From contig JAMCVT010000057.1 of NCBI GenBank assembly GCA_023475565.1, forward strand, positions 1 to 39,559: DNA of 39,559 nucleotides, read 5' to 3'. This DNA is from Actinomycetota bacterium (GTDB taxonomy: Bacteria; Bacillota; Desulfotomaculia; Desulfotomaculales; Desulfocucumaceae). A model generated the notes under the pieces. That model saw nothing but the letters and a program-made list of their open reading frames with translations, did not search any database and was not told where the DNA came from. Of this stretch, positions 27,981 to 37,926 are shown piece after piece. The position numbers and the translations under genes are program-made. Position 1 is the stretch's first letter. Each line of letters starts with the position of its first letter.

Positions 27981-28919
27981 TTAGTTGTATGTATATCGGG
28001 TTCCCGCGGAATAAAGCACAAATTTGCCCGCCATGCGCTCCGAGAACAGCTTTAGAGCCTCAAACCCGGTGCAGTGCATAGGAACGATCTGGTCCGGCCC
28101 TATCCCGGCCAGTTCATTAACTGTCTTCTCAATCTTCTCCGCCGGGGCGCCGGAGAGGTGAAACCCTCCCAGAATGGCGTGAATCTTATCTACCCCGGTC
28201 AGATCCGCCGCCCTGCGGACAGTGTTAACTATACCGGCGTGGGCGCAGGCGGTAAGAATGACCAGCCCCTTACCGGGCAGGTTGAAGGCCATGCTTATCT
28301 CTCCCGGGAAATCATCAAGGGCCAGGCCGCTATCCCTCTCCACCGCCAGAATGGGGGATCCCTGTTCATATTCGGTCACCCTGGGTATGGGACAGATGGC
28401 CAGCACCCCCGGCAGTATTTCCCGCGGCTGATTTATTTCCCTTATTTCACAGCCGGCCGCCTCAACTTTCTGAGGGTCCAGTCGGCCCAGGTCCACCCTC
28501 AGGCCGGGAAGATTTACGCACCTCCCTAAGAAGACTTCCCTGCCTACATAAAGGGGAAGTTTTTTCCCGGCCAGCTTCATCACCTTTTCCAAACCTCCAA
28601 AATGGTCAGAGTGGCCGTGACTGAGCACTGCCGCCCCGACCCCGGAAAGATCCAGGTCCAGGGCCTTTATGTTGTTGGCCGTACCGTTTTCAGAAATACC
28701 GAAGTCCATCAGAAGCAAATTTTTTTGGCCGCCGGCGGTAACCTCTATGTAACAGCCGAAGCCGTGCTCGGCGGAAATTTGTGGCAGCAGCCGGGCTGTT
28801 TCCCCCCCGGGGGGCTTGAGGAACCCGTGCCTGTCAAAATTTGCCCCGGGCACTAAAAGACCATCGTAATAATTGTCGATAATAACGGTGATTCTTACTT
28901 CTTCAGCTACTGTCAGCAC
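27981..28919 (-). CDS. MBL-fold metallo-hydrolase
   Basis: 312 aa; LSHGHSDHFGGLEK (HxHxDH), TACAHAGIVNTVR, ILGGFHLSGA, IVPMHCTGFEA. Confidence 0.9.
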   Translation of the reverse strand: MLTVAEEVRITVIIDNYYDGLLVPGANFDRHGFLKPPGGETARLLPQISAEHGFGCYIEVTAGGQKNLLLMDFGISENGTANNIKALDLDLSGVGAAVLSHGHSDHFGGLEKVMKLAGKKLPLYVGREVFLGRCVNLPGLRVDLGRLDPQKVEAAGCEIREINQPREILPGVLAICPIPRVTEYEQGSPILAVERDSGLALDDFPGEISMAFNLPGKGLVILTACAHAGIVNTVRRAADLTGVDKIHAILGGFHLSGAPAEKIEKTVNELAGIGPDQIVPMHCTGFEALKLFSERMAGKFVLYSAGTRYTYN

Positions 28920-29000
28920 TATTCAATAACCCCCTCGTATGGTATCAGATTAATTATATCACAGAATAAAACTGGTATTTTCTATATACGGCTATAAAAA

Positions 29001-29037
29001 AAGGGCGCCCGGGTATTTTGAATCCCGGTTGGCCCTT
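29001..29037 (-). terminator. Intrinsic terminator downstream of giant surface-protein gene
   Basis: Minus strand AAGGGCCAACCGGGATTCAAAATACCCGGGCGCCCTTTTTTTATAG. Confidence 0.85.
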
Positions 29038-29078
29038 GTTTAATCAGACACTGTTTTTTTCTTTACAGATGCGATTTA

Positions 29079-32000
29079 TCACGGAATGCGGACAAAAACG
29101 TCTTCATACACATTTGTATCCTCCGGCAAAAGGTTGGTTGAGCCGGAGTGGAAGGCCACGCTGCCGTCATCTGCCACGCAGGGCGAGTAGCCGGTGTAGG
29201 GGCTTGCCTTTCCGGTTGTGCCCAGCAGCATGTCCCTGACATATATCCTATAAGCGGAAGTGGTTACTCCGCCCACCAGGTTTGTAGCATACGACACGAA
29301 GGCCACGTAGCGGCCATTGGGGCTTATCGATGGCTTTTCGCAAGAGCTGTCGGCCTGGACCTCATCGCTGGAGACACTGGCCATCTCCGTAGCCACCGCC
29401 CCCGGCTCGTCGAATATCCCGTCTTCATCGGCATCCCGGTCATGTACAAATATATCGGTGGTGCCGTTGGTGTCTCCGGCCGCCAGGTTGCCGGCCAGAG
29501 AGTCAAAAACCACATAGCGCCCGCCGGCGCTGATAGAAACATTGCCCTCATGGGATCCCGGATAGAATATTGCGCCGCTGAAGTAATTGCCCTGGGCGCC
29601 GTCACCGGCCACGCTCACCCGGACGGTGATGCCCAAAAGCAGATCCCGCACGAATACGTCCGGGCAGCCGTTTGTATCTCCCCCCACCAGGTTGTCCGCA
29701 TTCGATATAAAGGCCACATAGCGCCCGTCGGAGCTTATGGAGGGCTTCATGCTCCAGTCATTGGCCCCGGTTCCGCTGCCGTAAACGCTGGCCCTCACCG
29801 TCTGGCCGTTTAGGCGGTTATGCACAAAGACATCGGTTGTGTTATTATTGTCCCCGGGGACAAGGTTGCCGGCCTGGGAGGCAAAGGCAACGCAGCGCCC
29901 GTCGCTGCTCACCGACGGGCAAAACATAGTAAAATAGCTGGCATAGGAGTCATTGTCGGCCTCGTCACCCAGCGTTTCCTGATACACCAGGTCGGGAACG
30001 CTTACCCTGTCGGTGCTTCCCAGTTGCCTGTCGCGGACAAAAACATCCCATTTCCCGTTGGTGTCCCCGTCCACCAGATTGCTGGCGGCCGATATAAATG
30101 CCACGTAGCGCCCGTCTGCGCTGATAGCCGGCAGGTAACTGTTGCTGTTGGAGTCCGTGCCGACAGTGGAAACGCTTATCCTTTCCGTGGTTTCCTCCTG
30201 CAGGTCCCTTAAGAATATATCGTCGGTAGAGTTGCCGTCACCGGCAACCAGATCGGTTGCCCCGGAATAAAAGGCTACGTAGCGGCCGTCGGAGCTTATG
30301 GCCGGATTGCAGCTATAGCTGTCCGCCCCGCTGCCTGTGGCTGACACACTGGCCATGACTACTGTCAGCTGCTCCGTTACCGGCTGTGTGGCGGCGCTAC
30401 TGGCCGGAGTCCCCGGGGAGGTCCCGGAGACCGCCACCGGGGTGACCTCAAATTGAATAGTCTTTCCGGCGTCTTGCCCCGCCAGAAGATAGGTTGTGGA
30501 CGTGGCGCCCGGTATAGCCGCCCCGTCGGCGTACCAGCTAAATACCGACTCTCCCTCGGCATCCCCTTCAGCGTCACTGTAGGTATAAGCGCCCGTCAGG
30601 GTTTGCCCCGCCGCCGCCGTTCCCGTTATCTGAACGTTTGAGGCCACCGGGGCAAAGTTGGCAGCCCCCGTCAGGCTGTGCAGCTGCTCCGGAATGGTCT
30701 TTTCAGAGGGATTCTTTGTTCCGTCGCCCAGCTGGCCGCTGAAATTGGCCCCCCAGCCCCAGACAGCGCCGGCGCCGTCAACCGCAAAAGTATGCTCGTA
30801 CCCCGCATAAATGCCGGTTATACCTGAAAGCCCCGGCACCCGGATGGGGGTTTGGTGAACGTTATAGTCTTTTGTGCCGTTCCCCAGCTCGCCGTACATA
30901 TTTTCTCCCCAGACCCAGACCGTCCCGTCCGGCTTAAGGGCCACGGTGTGCTCAAATCCCGCGGCAATGGCTGAAACGCCGGCCAGGTAACCGCTTCCGT
31001 TCTCTCCCACCACCTGTACCGGCGAGGGCCTGTATGACGCTCCGGTTCCGTCGCCCAGCCCACCGTAGTAGTTGTCTCCCCAGGTCCATGCCGTGCCGTC
31101 GCTCCCGAGGGCCATGGAAAAGTGCTCATCTGCCGCGATAGCGGTTATACTGCCTAATCCCGTTACCTGTACCGGAAGAAGGTGGTCGTTCCAGTCGTAG
31201 GCACCTATACCCAGTTCACCCAGGCCATTCTTTCCCCAGGCCCAGACCGTCCCGTCCGACTTCAGGGCCAGGGTGTGCTCATTTCCGGCAGCTATAGCCA
31301 CTACATCGGTAAGGAATCCTATTCCGTCCGGACCCCGCACCGGAACGGGAGTACTCCTTGGATCACCGGTCCCGTCGCCCAGCTCGCCGTAGAAATTAAC
31401 TCCCCAGGTCCAGACAGTGCCGTCAGCCCGCAGGGCGGCAGCGTGCTGATAGCCGGCCGCGACAGCCTTTATCCGGGTCAGGAACCCTGTTCCCTCCGGG
31501 CCCCTCACCTGCGCCGGTGTAAAGCTGGAGGAGGTGGTCCCGCTGCCCAGCTGGCCATAATTGTTTCTTCCCCAGGCCCAGACGGTTCCGTCGTTTTTAA
31601 GGGCAGTTGAATACCATTCCCCTGCGTCAAGAGCGGCGACGTTGTCCAGGTTGCCCACCCCGCCTGCTCCCTTAACCTGAACAGGGCCAAGGCGCTCGCT
31701 GTCCGTACCGTCTCCCACCTCCCCGTAGCGGTTCTCGCCCCAGGCCCAGACCGTCCCGTCACCCTTGCGGATAAGGCTGTGGTAATACCCGCCGGACACC
31801 GGAACCACCGCCGGGGTGAGCCCGGCCAGCCCGATGGTGGCACAGGAGGCATTGCTGCTCTGGGGAGATACATTACCCTCCTCATCCAGGGCGACGGCGT
31901 AGTAATAATAGGCTGTATCGGTTGCCAGGGCTAAATCCCAGCAGCTTGTATCAGCTCCGTCCACAGTGGAAATTTTACTGAATGGCCCGTTAATGGAAGG

Positions 32001-34196
32001 CCCCCGGTATATTTCATAGCGGGTGACACGGATATTATCGGCAGACGGGGTCCATTTCAGCTTCGCCCAGTCCAGGCCGGTCATCTCCACCGTAAAGGTG
32101 GCCGGGGCGCTGGGAGGAGTGATATCCGGGGCCGGATCCACTTCCAGCTTTGTCATAAAGATGTCGGTTTCAAGATTGGTGTCGCCGGCTACGATGTTAT
32201 CGGCGTCGGAAGTGTATGCCACATACGCGTTATTCCCGTCCCGGATGACCGGAGAGAGATCGAAGCTGCCGGCGTTCCCCTGCCAGCCGGTTATGGTTGT
32301 ACTGACGCATTTTGTCATATTGCTTTCCCTGTCGTGTATAAAAACATCGTCAACACCGTTGGTGTCCCCCGGAACGAGATTGTCAGCCGAGGAATAAAAG
32401 GTTGCAAACCTGCCCTCCGGGCTAATGGCCGCGCCGAAGCAGTGGCTGTCGGGCTGCTCCCCGCCGCTGGAAATGCTCACCCTCTCAAAAGTTCCCGGGC
32501 CGAAGTTCCCGTCTTCGTCGGGATCACGGTCAAGCACGAAAATATCATACACAGAGTTGCTGTCCCCCGGTACCAGATTTGAAAGGTCAGCAGCCTCAAA
32601 GGCAATATACCGGCCGTCAGTGCTGATTGACGGGTCCATGGACTCCGGCGCCCCCGCCCACTCAGTGGTGCCGCTGGTAAGATCCCGGATATAAACACCA
32701 AAATCGGTTATACCACTGCCCAGAGTGGTGGAGCCTGAGGAATAGGCAACGTAGCGGCCGTTGCCGCTGATGCGGGGGAAGTAACAGTCCTGGTCAGCCT
32801 GGGCGCCCGAGCCGGATACGCTGGCCCTTACGGTCTGAATATCCCCCGGCTGGTCAAAAACCCCGTCATTATTCACATCCCGGTTGTGGACGAAAATATC
32901 CTGCTTTCCGTTGGTATCCCCTGCCACCAGGTTGCTTGCCCGGGAATAAAAAGAAACATAACGGCCGTCATCGCTTATCGAGGGATAGCAGCTGTAATTG
33001 TCGGCCTGAGTGCCTTGGCTGTCAACACTGACCCTGACAGTATTTACATCCTCCTGCTCATCAAATGTCCCGTCATTGCTTACATCACGGTCGTGCACAA
33101 ATATATCCCATTCATTGTTGGAGTCAGCGGATACCAGGTTGGTAGCCCCGGAACGGAAGGCGACAAATCTGCCGTCCGGGGTAATGCAGGGCTCATCACT
33201 GATTGCCGAACTTGACTGCTGGCCCTCTTTGGTGACATTTACCCGCACGGTTGTTCCCGCCTGTCTGTCGCGAACAAATATGTCGTCAGCCTCGTTTGTG
33301 TCTCCCTGAATCAGGTTGCTTGCTGATGAGACAAAGGCAACGTACCGGCCTCCCGCGCTTAGTGAGGGCTCCTTGCTGTGCCCATAAGACGTCTGGCCGC
33401 CGCTTCCGTTCAGGTTTACCCTTTCCACCGAATCTATGCGCAGCGATTGGGTAATGACAGCCTCTGCGTTTATTACATAGGTGAAAGGCACCACGTCACT
33501 GTCGGTCAGGCCCTCCTTAACCGCATAGGCGTTGATAGTTTTGCTTTCGTCAACAATAATGGCTGTGCTGTACTGCTGCCTGGTGCCGCTGGACCTGGGA
33601 TCACTCCCGTCAGTTGTATACCAAATGACTGATCCTTCAGTCGAAGCCGAAAGGGAAACTGACCGGGCGCTGTTATAAGTACCGGCCGCCGGGGATGCAA
33701 TTGGGTTTTCCACCTTGTCCCGGCTGCACACAGTCACTGTAAATATGACAGTTGCCCCGGCATACCCGGTTTTTGCCGCCGCAACCGTTATAATGGCAGT
33801 CCCGGGGGCAACTCCGTTAACGGTTATCTCACTGCCCGACACAGACACGCCGGCGATTCCTGTATCACTGGACAAAGCAGACAATACCGCATCGTCCGGG
33901 CTTACAGTGACTGATATAGTCTCCTGCTGGCTAACTGAAAGAGACAGGTTGTTGATTGACTGTAGGATTACCGCACTATCTTCTGTATTGGACGACCCAA
34001 TGTTTGATATGACTGGATTGCTGGGTGCCACCAATGTATGTTCATTTAAAGAATTCAATATTTCATTGACGTCAGGGAGGGGTGGAAGCCCATTCACCAG
34101 GGGAGCGGGAGGCAGGCCCGGGGCCGGGGGAACCTCCTGCAAAGGTTTCACTATAACAGGCGCCGCATTCAGTATCGCCTCCGCCCTTTGCTGCAT
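29079..34196 (-). CDS. Very large secreted/surface protein (1705 aa in this frame): chitobiase-C-like, 7 PD40-like, FN3, 7 RCC1, Ig-like, 7 PD40-like repeats
   Basis: Repeat signatures (S.DGRYVAF.S.A.NLV.GDTN...DIFVRDR; ..HT.ALK.DGTVW.WG.N.YGELGDGT) counted by eye; likely C-terminal part of a gene beginning at 35586. Confidence 0.9.
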   Translation of the reverse strand: MQQRAEAILNAAPVIVKPLQEVPPAPGLPPAPLVNGLPPLPDVNEILNSLNEHTLVAPSNPVISNIGSSNTEDSAVILQSINNLSLSVSQQETISVTVSPDDAVLSALSSDTGIAGVSVSGSEITVNGVAPGTAIITVAAAKTGYAGATVIFTVTVCSRDKVENPIASPAAGTYNSARSVSLSASTEGSVIWYTTDGSDPRSSGTRQQYSTAIIVDESKTINAYAVKEGLTDSDVVPFTYVINAEAVITQSLRIDSVERVNLNGSGGQTSYGHSKEPSLSAGGRYVAFVSSASNLIQGDTNEADDIFVRDRQAGTTVRVNVTKEGQQSSSAISDEPCITPDGRFVAFRSGATNLVSADSNNEWDIFVHDRDVSNDGTFDEQEDVNTVRVSVDSQGTQADNYSCYPSISDDGRYVSFYSRASNLVAGDTNGKQDIFVHNRDVNNDGVFDQPGDIQTVRASVSGSGAQADQDCYFPRISGNGRYVAYSSGSTTLGSGITDFGVYIRDLTSGTTEWAGAPESMDPSISTDGRYIAFEAADLSNLVPGDSNSVYDIFVLDRDPDEDGNFGPGTFERVSISSGGEQPDSHCFGAAISPEGRFATFYSSADNLVPGDTNGVDDVFIHDRESNMTKCVSTTITGWQGNAGSFDLSPVIRDGNNAYVAYTSDADNIVAGDTNLETDIFMTKLEVDPAPDITPPSAPATFTVEMTGLDWAKLKWTPSADNIRVTRYEIYRGPSINGPFSKISTVDGADTSCWDLALATDTAYYYYAVALDEEGNVSPQSSNASCATIGLAGLTPAVVPVSGGYYHSLIRKGDGTVWAWGENRYGEVGDGTDSERLGPVQVKGAGGVGNLDNVAALDAGEWYSTALKNDGTVWAWGRNNYGQLGSGTTSSSFTPAQVRGPEGTGFLTRIKAVAAGYQHAAALRADGTVWTWGVNFYGELGDGTGDPRSTPVPVRGPDGIGFLTDVVAIAAGNEHTLALKSDGTVWAWGKNGLGELGIGAYDWNDHLLPVQVTGLGSITAIAADEHFSMALGSDGTAWTWGDNYYGGLGDGTGASYRPSPVQVVGENGSGYLAGVSAIAAGFEHTVALKPDGTVWVWGENMYGELGNGTKDYNVHQTPIRVPGLSGITGIYAGYEHTFAVDGAGAVWGWGANFSGQLGDGTKNPSEKTIPEQLHSLTGAANFAPVASNVQITGTAAAGQTLTGAYTYSDAEGDAEGESVFSWYADGAAIPGATSTTYLLAGQDAGKTIQFEVTPVAVSGTSPGTPASSAATQPVTEQLTVVMASVSATGSGADSYSCNPAISSDGRYVAFYSGATDLVAGDGNSTDDIFLRDLQEETTERISVSTVGTDSNSNSYLPAISADGRYVAFISAASNLVDGDTNGKWDVFVRDRQLGSTDRVSVPDLVYQETLGDEADNDSYASYFTMFCPSVSSDGRCVAFASQAGNLVPGDNNNTTDVFVHNRLNGQTVRASVYGSGTGANDWSMKPSISSDGRYVAFISNADNLVGGDTNGCPDVFVRDLLLGITVRVSVAGDGAQGNYFSGAIFYPGSHEGNVSISAGGRYVVFDSLAGNLAAGDTNGTTDIFVHDRDADEDGIFDEPGAVATEMASVSSDEVQADSSCEKPSISPNGRYVAFVSYATNLVGGVTTSAYRIYVRDMLLGTTGKASPYTGYSPCVADDGSVAFHSGSTNLLPEDTNVYEDVFVRIP
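29082..30330 (-). other. Second PD40/TolB-like seven-repeat array
   Basis: Seven repeats from DSYSCNPAISSDGRYVAFYSGATDLVAGDGNSTDDIFLRDL to YSPCVADDGSVAFHSGSTNLLPEDTNVYEDVFVRIP. Confidence 0.75.
30700..31800 (-). other. RCC1-type seven-repeat array
   Basis: Seven repeats GGYYHSLIRKGDGTVWAWGENRYGEVGDGT ... AGYEHTFAVDGAGAVWGWGANFSGQLGDGT. Confidence 0.85.
32150..33400 (-). other. First PD40/TolB-like seven-repeat array
   Basis: Seven repeats from SYGHSKEPSLSAGGRYVAFVSSASNLIQGDTNEADDIFVRDR to NNAYVAYTSDADNIVAGDTNLETDIFM. Confidence 0.75.
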
Positions 34197-35586
34197 CCAT
34201 TCTTTTACCGCAGACCCAGGCCGCTTTCTCAGCAGCGGTCAGTTGGGCAGGCTGGGCGGGCGCGGCTCCCGGAGAGCTGATCCCGGTAGACATTCCAGCC
34301 TGCACTGATACTGAAACCCCGTTTGAGGTAACTTCTGCCGTCCCGTCAATGACACTGGTTGTCTGGTTCTCCGGGGTAACCTCATTCATCCAGAAGGTGC
34401 CCCTTATCCCGGCAACACCCCAGGGCATATCCATTTCCACACGGACATGTTGCTGGTAACCGGCTTCCCACCAGGGAATTTCCCCACTGTTTTCAGCGGC
34501 TAACAACTGCCCGGCCGGCAGCAGGGAGGATGAGGCCAGCAGCTTGTCCCTCGGCATTTCATCCCTAGCTGTCGCGGATGCTTTATTTTCCTGTCACGTC
34601 TCTTCACGGCCATATATGTACCCTGCGGCAAGACCCCCTATAATCCTGCCACGGGTAAGATCGATCTTTAGAAAGTCCACCACAACACCCGGAGACCCGT
34701 CCCTCAGTATTGTGGACTGCCCCTCGGACGATTTTATTTCCAGTAGTGTGTTCTGCTCCAACAAAAGGCCGGAACCGTCGGGAAACCTTATCTCCGCCCT
34801 TCCGCCGGTGTCGGTTTTTACAGCCATTCCCCCGGCGCAGGCCGTGCTGCCGGTTACCCTTGAAAAATTTCCCCCGCTGCCTTTTATATATACTTCCCCA
34901 TTCAGCGGCACCAGGGTGCCGACAAGTGGAACCTTCCGGTATTCAGGGGCTATGTTCAGCATAACAGCCAGCCCCCTGGCCATCTGGGCGCGGGTGGACG
35001 GGCTGTCCGGCAAAAAGCTGCGGCTGTCAGCCATAGTAAGCAGCCCGGCTCTTAAAGCGGCCGCAATTGTTTGGCCCGCCCAGTGGGCAGGTCCCACATC
35101 AGTGACATATCCGGGAAGCTTAACGGAAGGAAGGGGCTCCCTGGTCAGTTTCAGGAGAAGTACCGCTACCTCGGCCCGGCTGACAGGGTTCCCGGGCCTG
35201 AAGGTCCCGTCGGGATAGCCCATGATAATACCGGCAGCAGCGGCAGACTCGACAATTCCGAATGCCCAGTGGTCAGGCCCTACATCACTGTACGTTGGGC
35301 CGGCGGGCCTCCCGGCGGAAAGACCCATTGCCTTCACCAGAAGCGCAGTGGCCTCGGCCCTGGTGATCTGTCCCTCCGGCATGAAATTGCCGTCCGGGTA
35401 GCCCTTGACTAAATCTTTTTCTGCCAGGAATTTTATATGCGGATATACCGGGCTGGTCACCGGGAGGTCCTTGAAGTCCGGCTGGCCGGCCAATAAGCAG
35501 CGGGGAAACAATACCACAGACACAAAGAAAATGCACAGGTATGCAGTTAGGCCCATTTTAGCATTAAAAAGCTTTTTCAAAAACAA
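34072..35586 (-). pseudogene. SLH-domain + FecR-like N-terminal part of the surface protein, interrupted by in-frame TGA at 34594-34596 and frameshift at ~34215-34225
   Basis: ORF 34594-35586 (signal peptide, SLH repeats KGYPDGNFMPEGQITRAEATALL, MGYPDGTFRPGNPVSRAEVAVLL; FecR-like TGGRAEIRFPDGSGLLLEQNTLLEI) continues in the same frame after TGA as QENKASATARDEMPRDKLL...PWGVAGIRGTFWMNEVTPENQTTSVIDGTAEV. Confidence 0.75.
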
Positions 35587-35722
35587 AACAATCTCTCCCC
35601 CAACATGTTCAGGTATCTACAAAATGACCATATTTTCGACATATATACATTATTATACTCTAATACCAAAAGGGAGAGAATGTTTTTTTTAATTGCAGTA
35701 TTTCATCTAATACTTGCTGTAT

Positions 35723-36973
35723 TCACTGATGGAGCAGCTGCAAACTCCACGCCGCCACCGCACTGCTGCTGGCAAAGCCGAACAGTGTCACAGCCCCGGC
35801 CAGGACCAGCAGGCTGGGGGCTATAAGGGTTCTGTAAGACCTGAAAAAATCCGCCTTGAAATAATCGTTGGTCAGAATAAAGCACAGGTGCACCGGGGAA
35901 ATCATTACCCCCACCACTGCGGATACAGAAGCCAGCATCACGTAGGCCGCCGTTGGCTCTACAACTCCCATCACCAGTGGGAAGGACACACCGATGCCGG
36001 CCGGCACCACCCCGGTGAGAATACCCACCATAAGCGGCAGGACAATGGCCGCCGCAAAGGGGGGCACCCCCGAGGAGACAAAGATGCCGCTGACCTGGGT
36101 TACGGCACCGGACACCTGCAGCACATCCTTGAAGGTCATGGTCCCCCAGATGAGGAATACTATCCCGGCAGTCATCGGCTCTCTTAATGTCTCCCACACC
36201 TGTACAAGCGGGTATTTTTTCTGCACTAACAGCACCGCCAGCACCGCCAAAAGGGCCGGGACTATGGGGACATGGGCTATCACCAGTCCCACAGTGGCCA
36301 GTATGGGCCATGTGCTGGAGGCCAGGAGCACTATGGGCCTCTTTTCTCCACCCTCCTTTCCGGAGACAGATCTGCAGACTTCTATTTTTTTACTCCTGAA
36401 CACCAGCCAGTAGCCCAGCAGAGCCCATACCACGGTAAAGGGCCACTGCCAGAGTATTATTCTGCCCAGAGGAACTCCCGACAGCTGGGCCGCCAGAATA
36501 ATGCCCGGATAAAGAGGGAGGGAGTACTCCCATACATGCCTGAACCAGTAGTTTATAAAAACCTTTTCCTCGGCCCTGTAGGGCGCTCCCGTCATGGCCT
36601 GCTCCACCAGGGGGGCCGAAAACCTGGCCCCTCCGGCTGAAGGCAGGAAGCCGATGATGGCCGGTATGGCGGCGGTAAGCACCTTGGGGTTCCACCGGAG
36701 AAGAAATATGGAGTCGGTCATGGCCCCCAGCATGCCGGACCGCCGCATTATCGATTCCAGCACCATTATAAGCGCCAGGGCCAGGATAAGGGTTAAGGTG
36801 CCTCCATCAGCCAGTGTCAGCCCCGCCTGCTTTATTATGGAAACCGGGCTCATCCGGAACATAAGGCCTAAAGACACGGCGGCTGCCATCATGGTGACAC
36901 CGAGGTTTATTTTCCTGTGCAGCATTAATACAACCAGGGCAAATACGGCAATTATTTTTAATACCGGCAGCAT
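35723..36973 (-). CDS. DUF401-type integral membrane permease-like protein
   Basis: 416 aa, ~10 hydrophobic segments; LLRWNPKVLTAAIPAIIGFLPSAGGARFSAPLVEQA resembles DUF401/anion-permease-like proteins. Confidence 0.8.
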   Translation of the reverse strand: MLPVLKIIAVFALVVLMLHRKINLGVTMMAAAVSLGLMFRMSPVSIIKQAGLTLADGGTLTLILALALIMVLESIMRRSGMLGAMTDSIFLLRWNPKVLTAAIPAIIGFLPSAGGARFSAPLVEQAMTGAPYRAEEKVFINYWFRHVWEYSLPLYPGIILAAQLSGVPLGRIILWQWPFTVVWALLGYWLVFRSKKIEVCRSVSGKEGGEKRPIVLLASSTWPILATVGLVIAHVPIVPALLAVLAVLLVQKKYPLVQVWETLREPMTAGIVFLIWGTMTFKDVLQVSGAVTQVSGIFVSSGVPPFAAAIVLPLMVGILTGVVPAGIGVSFPLVMGVVEPTAAYVMLASVSAVVGVMISPVHLCFILTNDYFKADFFRSYRTLIAPSLLVLAGAVTLFGFASSSAVAAWSLQLLHQ

Positions 36974-36990
36974 TTAATCAGTACCTCACA

Positions 36991-37926
36991 CTAAATGTCT
37001 TTCTTTACGGCGGCGGGCCGGGCCTTCAGCCTGGCAACCCTCTCCCGGGCATACTCCCTGGCCTGGCGCGGGTCCCAGTAAGATGTGGTTTTCGAAGCTA
37101 TCAGCCAGACATCCCTGAAACTTATTGACTCCACATTACTCTTTATGGCGGGAATAAATTCAGGCGGCGCCACTAAATGGTTAAAGCCCAGCCCTATCAG
37201 GACAGGCACAGCCACCGGGTCCCTGACAGCCGGGGCGCTTATCCTGGCCCCGTCCTTCCGTCCCTTCAGGCTCTCCGCCATAGCCTGCGACTGCAGCAGA
37301 AAGGCCTGGCTGTAGTAGGCCTCCTGCTCTCTGCCGCCACTTATGTCCTGGTCCGCCATAAGATGTTTTAAATATTTTTCTCCTATTATAAAAAAGGTGG
37401 ACTCAAACATCAAAGCCTTTATGGCCGGAATAACAGAGGGCACCTCCACCACCACGCCGGTTGCGGGAAGTGAGCAGCCAACACCCTCATTTTCCAGCCC
37501 GGCCCTGGCCTCTCCCATGATTTCCTTAAAGGCTGATATCTCAGCCACATGGCTCACCATGGGCAGGGCCAGCTCATAGCAGCCATAGGCCCCGGCCCGT
37601 AAAGCAGCCCTCAAAAAAGGCCTGTACAAATCGGGGCGGGCCAGGAGAAGCCTTATCCCGCACCTCTCCGGGTCCGGCTTTCCCAATTCTCCGCACATAT
37701 CAGGCAGCAAAATGGTTACGGGCATTTGGCCCGGTATTTCTGCCGACTCCCGGAAGAGTGTGAAATACTTTTCCTCCGCTTCCCCCGGAGAAAGGTCAAC
37801 GGAATGCCCCGCCTCAAGCAGACCAATGCCGTCGGCCCCCCCGGCGGCGGCCCCCGGCAGTTCCCGGGGCGCCCTGATATGTGCGGTTATGCTGATTGTC
37901 CGGTTATCCAACGTGATAGTTGACAT
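36991..37926 (-). CDS. Stand-alone homologue of PTS Enzyme I / PEP-utilising-enzyme C-terminal TIM-barrel domain, apparently lacking catalytic residues
   Basis: 311 aa; ITAHIRAPRELPGAAAGGADGIGLLEAG, GIRLLLARPDLYRPFLRAALRAGAYGCYELALPMVSHVAEI, GVVVEVPSVIPAIKALMFESTFFIIG, VLIGLGFNHLVAPPEFIPAIKSNVESI align by eye to Enzyme I-C motifs. Confidence 0.75.
   Translation of the reverse strand: MSTITLDNRTISITAHIRAPRELPGAAAGGADGIGLLEAGHSVDLSPGEAEEKYFTLFRESAEIPGQMPVTILLPDMCGELGKPDPERCGIRLLLARPDLYRPFLRAALRAGAYGCYELALPMVSHVAEISAFKEIMGEARAGLENEGVGCSLPATGVVVEVPSVIPAIKALMFESTFFIIGEKYLKHLMADQDISGGREQEAYYSQAFLLQSQAMAESLKGRKDGARISAPAVRDPVAVPVLIGLGFNHLVAPPEFIPAIKSNVESISFRDVWLIASKTTSYWDPRQAREYARERVARLKARPAAVKKDI

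Follow-up and report, generated by a model that had tools for sequence, protein, structure and literature searches.

The 39,559-nt stretch of DNA analysed here (the window) carries on its minus strand what is probably a broken copy of the gene for a modular exported surface protein, which would combine an SLH anchor, a stalk and, as a binding head, a chain of propellers stabilised by Ca2+. At the same place in a genome of the same genus (G002, contig C24, L024:8656-13515), the orthologue is one uninterrupted gene of 1619 aa. The gene as sequenced in the window cannot yield a single exported protein. The preliminary description of this DNA had proposed a single exported protein with three propellers; the three propeller blocks do lie in one 1705-aa frame (34196-29079, minus strand; 29082 without the stop), but the 5' part of the gene is cut off from them by an in-frame TGA and a frameshift.

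Translation of the 1705-aa frame, taken from the list of open reading frames, revealed 1705 open codons without internal stops, and searches of its genome identified it as the sole RCC1-bearing frame and the sole strong match to its PD40 type. Its first recognisable parts, all on the minus strand, are a bacterial Ig-like domain of the Big_2 type (residues 66-157, 33726..34001), which aligns with the orthologue's own Big_2 domain, and a CHB_HEX_C_1 domain (residues 169-243, or 169-236 by narrower limits; 33468..33692; Pfam PF13290, E 1.4e-16). These are followed by a PD40-type propeller (PD40-N; residues 251-683, 32148..33446) that is not in the orthologue, and by the FN3-like linker that accompanies it (residues 689-789, 31830..32132), the same order being found in another gene of the relative, G002:C2. 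The RCC1 propeller (residues 796-1178, 30663..31811) is recognised by Pfam and is 66% identical to that of the orthologue. An Ig-like linker (residues 1184-1262, 30411..30647), also not in the orthologue and poorly modelled, leads to the C-terminal PD40-type propeller (PD40-C; residues 1277-1705, 29082..30368), which is 79% identical to its counterpart. The Ig-like and CHB_HEX_C_1 domains ahead of the first propeller had been overlooked in the preliminary description, as had the 5' part of the gene, which lies upstream in another frame.

Counting of anchor motifs gave seven units for each propeller. PD40-N has seven loops of the GD[TS]Nx3D[IV]F type, one of them degenerate, across residues 298-671; the RCC1 block has W-x-W-G-x-N at 817, 873, 929, 985, 1037, 1094 and 1146; and PD40-C has seven units with loops across residues 1319-1692, again one degenerate. 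Pfam matched RCC1 (PF00415) in seven stretches, every one above the cut-off (E 7.6e-76), together with WD40_RLD (2.2e-94) and PD40 (PF07676, 1e-24; 86.3 bits for the whole protein against a cut-off of 20.9). Regular expressions for the three motifs found 12, 7 and 9 matches in the protein, as against maxima of 1, 0 and 1 in 1000 shuffles. The series of seven PD40, seven RCC1 and seven PD40 units that had been counted by eye thus agrees with anchor motifs, Pfam and the shuffle control, and the positions first given for the three blocks are correct to about 100 bases. The Ig-like linker was likewise confirmed, as IG_AIR9 (PF23197, residues 1186-1260, E 1.8e-7). The linker called FN3-like has no Pfam match in the window protein; the stretch of G002:C2 that aligns with it is Pfam fn3 (PF00041, 7.6e-11).

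In the analysis of the upstream DNA, a 330-aa frame (34594..35586, minus strand) was found to encode a signal-peptide-like N-terminus, three SLH repeats (Pfam, 4.3e-36) and the start of a FecR domain (0.0011), with 68-70% identity to the N-terminus of the intact orthologue. It is closed by an in-frame TGA (34596-34594, minus). Three-frame translation revealed that the continuation after the TGA (34216..34593, minus), comprising the FecR tail and a linker up to the frameshift, is 61% identical over 115 aa to residues 333-449 of the orthologue. In the frameshift zone itself (34200..34215, minus), read directly, 16 nt separate two conserved Trp codons, compared with 15 in the orthologue, a net change of +1. 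A signal peptide and SLH repeats are accordingly absent from the 1705-aa frame itself, both lying in the preceding frame, and a signal peptide and three SLH repeats within the same polypeptide were found in the orthologue and not in the window. Comparison of window and orthologue indicated purifying selection before as well as after the breaks (dN/dS 0.14-0.29), and the neighbouring priA, MBL, DUF401, fmt and PEP-utiliser genes are full length and in frame when compared with the orthologous region. Because the relative has one intact frame, the neighbours are full length and selection is purifying across the breaks, the break is either recent, making the gene a pseudogene, or an assembly or sequencing error.

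We give a little less than even chances to the second of these, in which both the TGA and the frameshift arose as errors and the organism itself would possess an unbroken SLH protein with three propellers, about 2160 aa long. The genome is a draft of 175 contigs, and the gene shows just two lesions and no further decay, with downstream dN/dS still at 0.14-0.29; however, both lesions fall inside about 400 bases of one gene, and the in-frame, full-length flanking genes argue that the contig is not error-rich overall. That the 1705-aa frame is instead a complete functional protein with its own start at 34196 is very improbable: despite its 1705 codons open without stops and the purifying selection, it has no signal peptide, its start sits midway in a region that is continuously coding in the orthologue, and the SLH-FecR frame upstream matches the orthologue's N-terminus in order and identity. 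Reading of the TGA as a selenocysteine codon was rejected, as an unremarkable linker of low conservation occupies that place in the orthologue.

The intact orthologue has the architecture signal peptide (a signal-peptide-like start), three SLH repeats, FecR, Ig, CHB_HEX, Ig, seven RCC1 units and seven PD40 units. It thus resembles the window gene in its place, its SLH-FecR-Ig-CHB_HEX start, its RCC1 propeller and its final PD40 propeller, and differs from it in being intact, in having two propellers, in the second Ig-like domain that occupies the position of the window's PD40-FN3, and in being without the AIR9-type Ig linker. Genes for a PEP-utiliser and DUF401 on one side, and for an MBL-fold protein and priA on the other, are common to both regions; in the window (27981-37926) the PEP-utiliser, DUF401 and propeller genes are grouped beside MBL-priA, likewise in G002. 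Neither another, third genome from the genus nor those of other family members had a propeller gene beside priA, within contig reach. On that side of priA, G001 and G007 have ABC transporter genes, and no propeller gene was seen there. The earlier proposal of an exported, SLH-anchored protein is right for the family, since the intact orthologue carries a signal-peptide-like start and three SLH repeats at the same place; it fails for the 1705-aa frame as sequenced, and the window copy was presumably surface anchored before the break.

Fold models were obtained in two AlphaFold runs (residues 250-1185 and 786-1705; alignments of four rows), with a mean pLDDT of 71-72 over both models and about 85 for the RCC1 part in each. 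The modelled RCC1 part matched UVR8 with a TM of 0.9 over about 390 aligned columns (rmsd 2.2-2.7 A for most top matches) and BLIP-II with a TM of 0.7-0.8; with this agreement and the pLDDT, a closed seven-bladed ring for the RCC1 block is well supported by the models. In the PD40 models, which are of moderate confidence (pLDDT roughly 55-90), seven times four strands (28, in the expected order) can be traced, each unit having three strands and a further outer one; an initial strand before unit 1 is positioned to close the ring, as would suit a velcro closure. Three seven-bladed propellers, as first described, are therefore upheld in the number of units by sequence and, for RCC1, in the closure seen in the model, whereas closure of the PD40 rings is inferred from strand order. 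A profile search on sequence found no solved structure in the PDB related to this PD40 type, and a structure of the type with the GD[TS]Nx3D loop would decide both blade number and metal binding. Among known systems, the RCC1 domain is like UVR8 of the RCC1/BLIP-II lineage (UVR8, RCC1 and BLIP-II) both in sequence (E 1.7e-63) and in the model (TM 0.9), but the window protein shows no sign of a GEF, photoreceptor or beta-lactamase inhibition role. With TolB/PD40 propellers it shares the Pfam PD40 repeat, and it differs from them in its seven units with the GD[TS]Nx3D loop and in having no solved relative by sequence.

The role of the protein is most likely that of a modular display or adhesion protein on the cell-wall polymer. 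In the proposed mechanism, the N-terminal signal peptide would export the intact protein, the three SLH repeats would hold it on a pyruvylated secondary cell-wall polymer, and the FecR/Ig/CHB_HEX stretch would act as a stalk. The chain of separately closed seven-bladed propellers would then form a rigid, outward-facing binding head, with an extracellular glycan, a protein or a partner cell as candidate targets. The window's genome contains one polysaccharide pyruvyl transferase gene (PF04230, the family of CsaB; E 2.1e-44), a CsaB candidate. Both PD40 propellers are acidic, with a net charge of -8 to -9 for every 100 residues, and Ca2+ at their conserved loops would probably stiffen them. Most PD40 blades have the conserved Asp/Asn loop GD[TS]Nx3D[IV]F, some with a DxDxDG insert, and these loops and inserts most likely bind Ca2+, to judge from their motifs. 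The inserts, which are EF-hand-like and lie at the ends of some blades (residues 557-566 and 1587-1596; RDPDEDGNF, RDADEDGIFDE), are possible extra metal sites. Bacterial integrin-type propellers have one Ca2+ site per repeat (PMC3192720), to which the putative Ca2+ loops of the PD40 units are comparable by motif resemblance only; no Pfam FG-GAP match was present in the window protein. It is improbable that the propellers are part of an enzyme or protease system acting outside the cell, of the TolB/DPP/tricorn kind, and not of an adhesin. Weak profile matches of the PD40 parts to TolB and Dpp5, and tricorn protease among structural matches across two domains, point that way, but the TolB and Dpp5 matches are far under curated cut-offs (31.1 versus 343 bits for TolB TIGR02800), and neither the window protein nor the orthologue nor the SLH-PD40 relative contains a catalytic domain.

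Surveys of related genomes revealed that, within the class, 8 of 113 genomes have this PD40 type and 27 have RCC1 propellers; the two share one frame in only two genes of that set, those of the window and the orthologue. The search for relatives in genome contigs returned only three distant RCC1 matches. Across the phylum the PD40 type was again found in 8 genomes, of 398 surveyed, with RCC1 sought in the newly found PD40-positive ones. One of these, from another family (G293, L044:3437-14944), has a 3836-aa frame with both, in the order PD40x7, NHL repeats, RCC1x7, RCC1x7, a stretch of TSPDGxTW repeats, and three C-terminal SLH repeats. It resembles the window gene in combining a PD40x7 propeller of the same type with RCC1 propellers and FN3 linkers in an SLH protein, and differs from it in its PD40-NHL-RCC1-RCC1 order, a possible fifth repeat domain, He_PIG domains and the C-terminal position of SLH. 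This protein, with possibly five propellers in one chain, is more extreme than that of the window. Elsewhere, G058 has PD40x7 with C-terminal SLH in one protein, and G042 has two PD40 propellers in one protein.

A search of the literature library consulted found no paper characterising such a protein and no combination of SLH with RCC1 or with PD40; for SLH with a beta-propeller the only return was ChiW, a chitinase. LPXTG surface proteins of bee-gut Bifidobacterium have 2-4 RCC1 domains of about seven repeats each, and they are like the window protein in joining several propellers in one wall-anchored protein, with fast domain turnover, but have RCC1 propellers only, sortase anchoring and Flg_new linkers (PMC3447821, PMC4449606). 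The architecture, initially described as unusual, is rare, and its exact order was met only in the window in the phylum survey; PD40, RCC1 and SLH are nevertheless also combined in the orthologue and, reordered and with more propellers, in G293. Given the chains in G293, G058 and G042 and the multi-RCC1 proteins of Bifidobacterium, the kind is already known, and the protein is an unusual mosaic of familiar parts rather than a novel class. The findings point to a group of SLH-anchored proteins, as yet undescribed, whose members carry between two and perhaps five propellers.

Amplification of propellers from single blades is known across lineages (PMC9218822). Here, a tree of eight PD40 propellers placed PD40-N with the propeller of G002:C2 (53% identity, support 100/99), which is followed by the same FN3 and shares the two irregular units, 4 and 5; it placed PD40-C with the propeller of the orthologue (79% identity, support 100/100). 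PD40-N and PD40-C are thus not copies of each other, as each groups with a different gene; intragenic duplication as the source of a second PD40 propeller was rejected, the pair being 45% identical and each having its closer match in the propeller of a different gene. Since the orthologue has two propellers and PD40-N belongs with the propeller of a different gene, the three-propeller form is, by these sequence comparisons, a domain-shuffling variant. Relative to the orthologue, the window copy has an additional PD40-FN3 unit and an additional Ig-like unit, and with two genomes compared, PD40-FN3 may have been either gained by the window copy or lost by the relative. The pair offers a clear natural case of a whole propeller gained or lost between two close relatives at one chromosomal place. 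Between window and orthologue, dS is 0.9-1.8 in the propeller gene versus 0.36-0.54 in its neighbours, which fits recombination or fast evolution; GC is 0.53-0.61 across the gene versus 0.49-0.61 around it, so that base composition is uninformative on foreign origin. Whole propellers with their linker are probably gained or exchanged between genes. A possible, if doubtful, extension is that these bacteria maintain SLH-anchored propeller chains as a set that diversifies: swapping of whole closed propellers plus linker between genes would change the specificity of the head by a single recombination and leave the anchor as it is, with the raised dS and the foreign PD40-FN3 as traces of the process. 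In G002, at L025:6297-12403, the gene most closely related to the window's first propeller, a PD40-FN3 gene of 1363 aa, lies 23 bases ahead of an SLH-FecR gene of the same orientation; the two perhaps form an operon.
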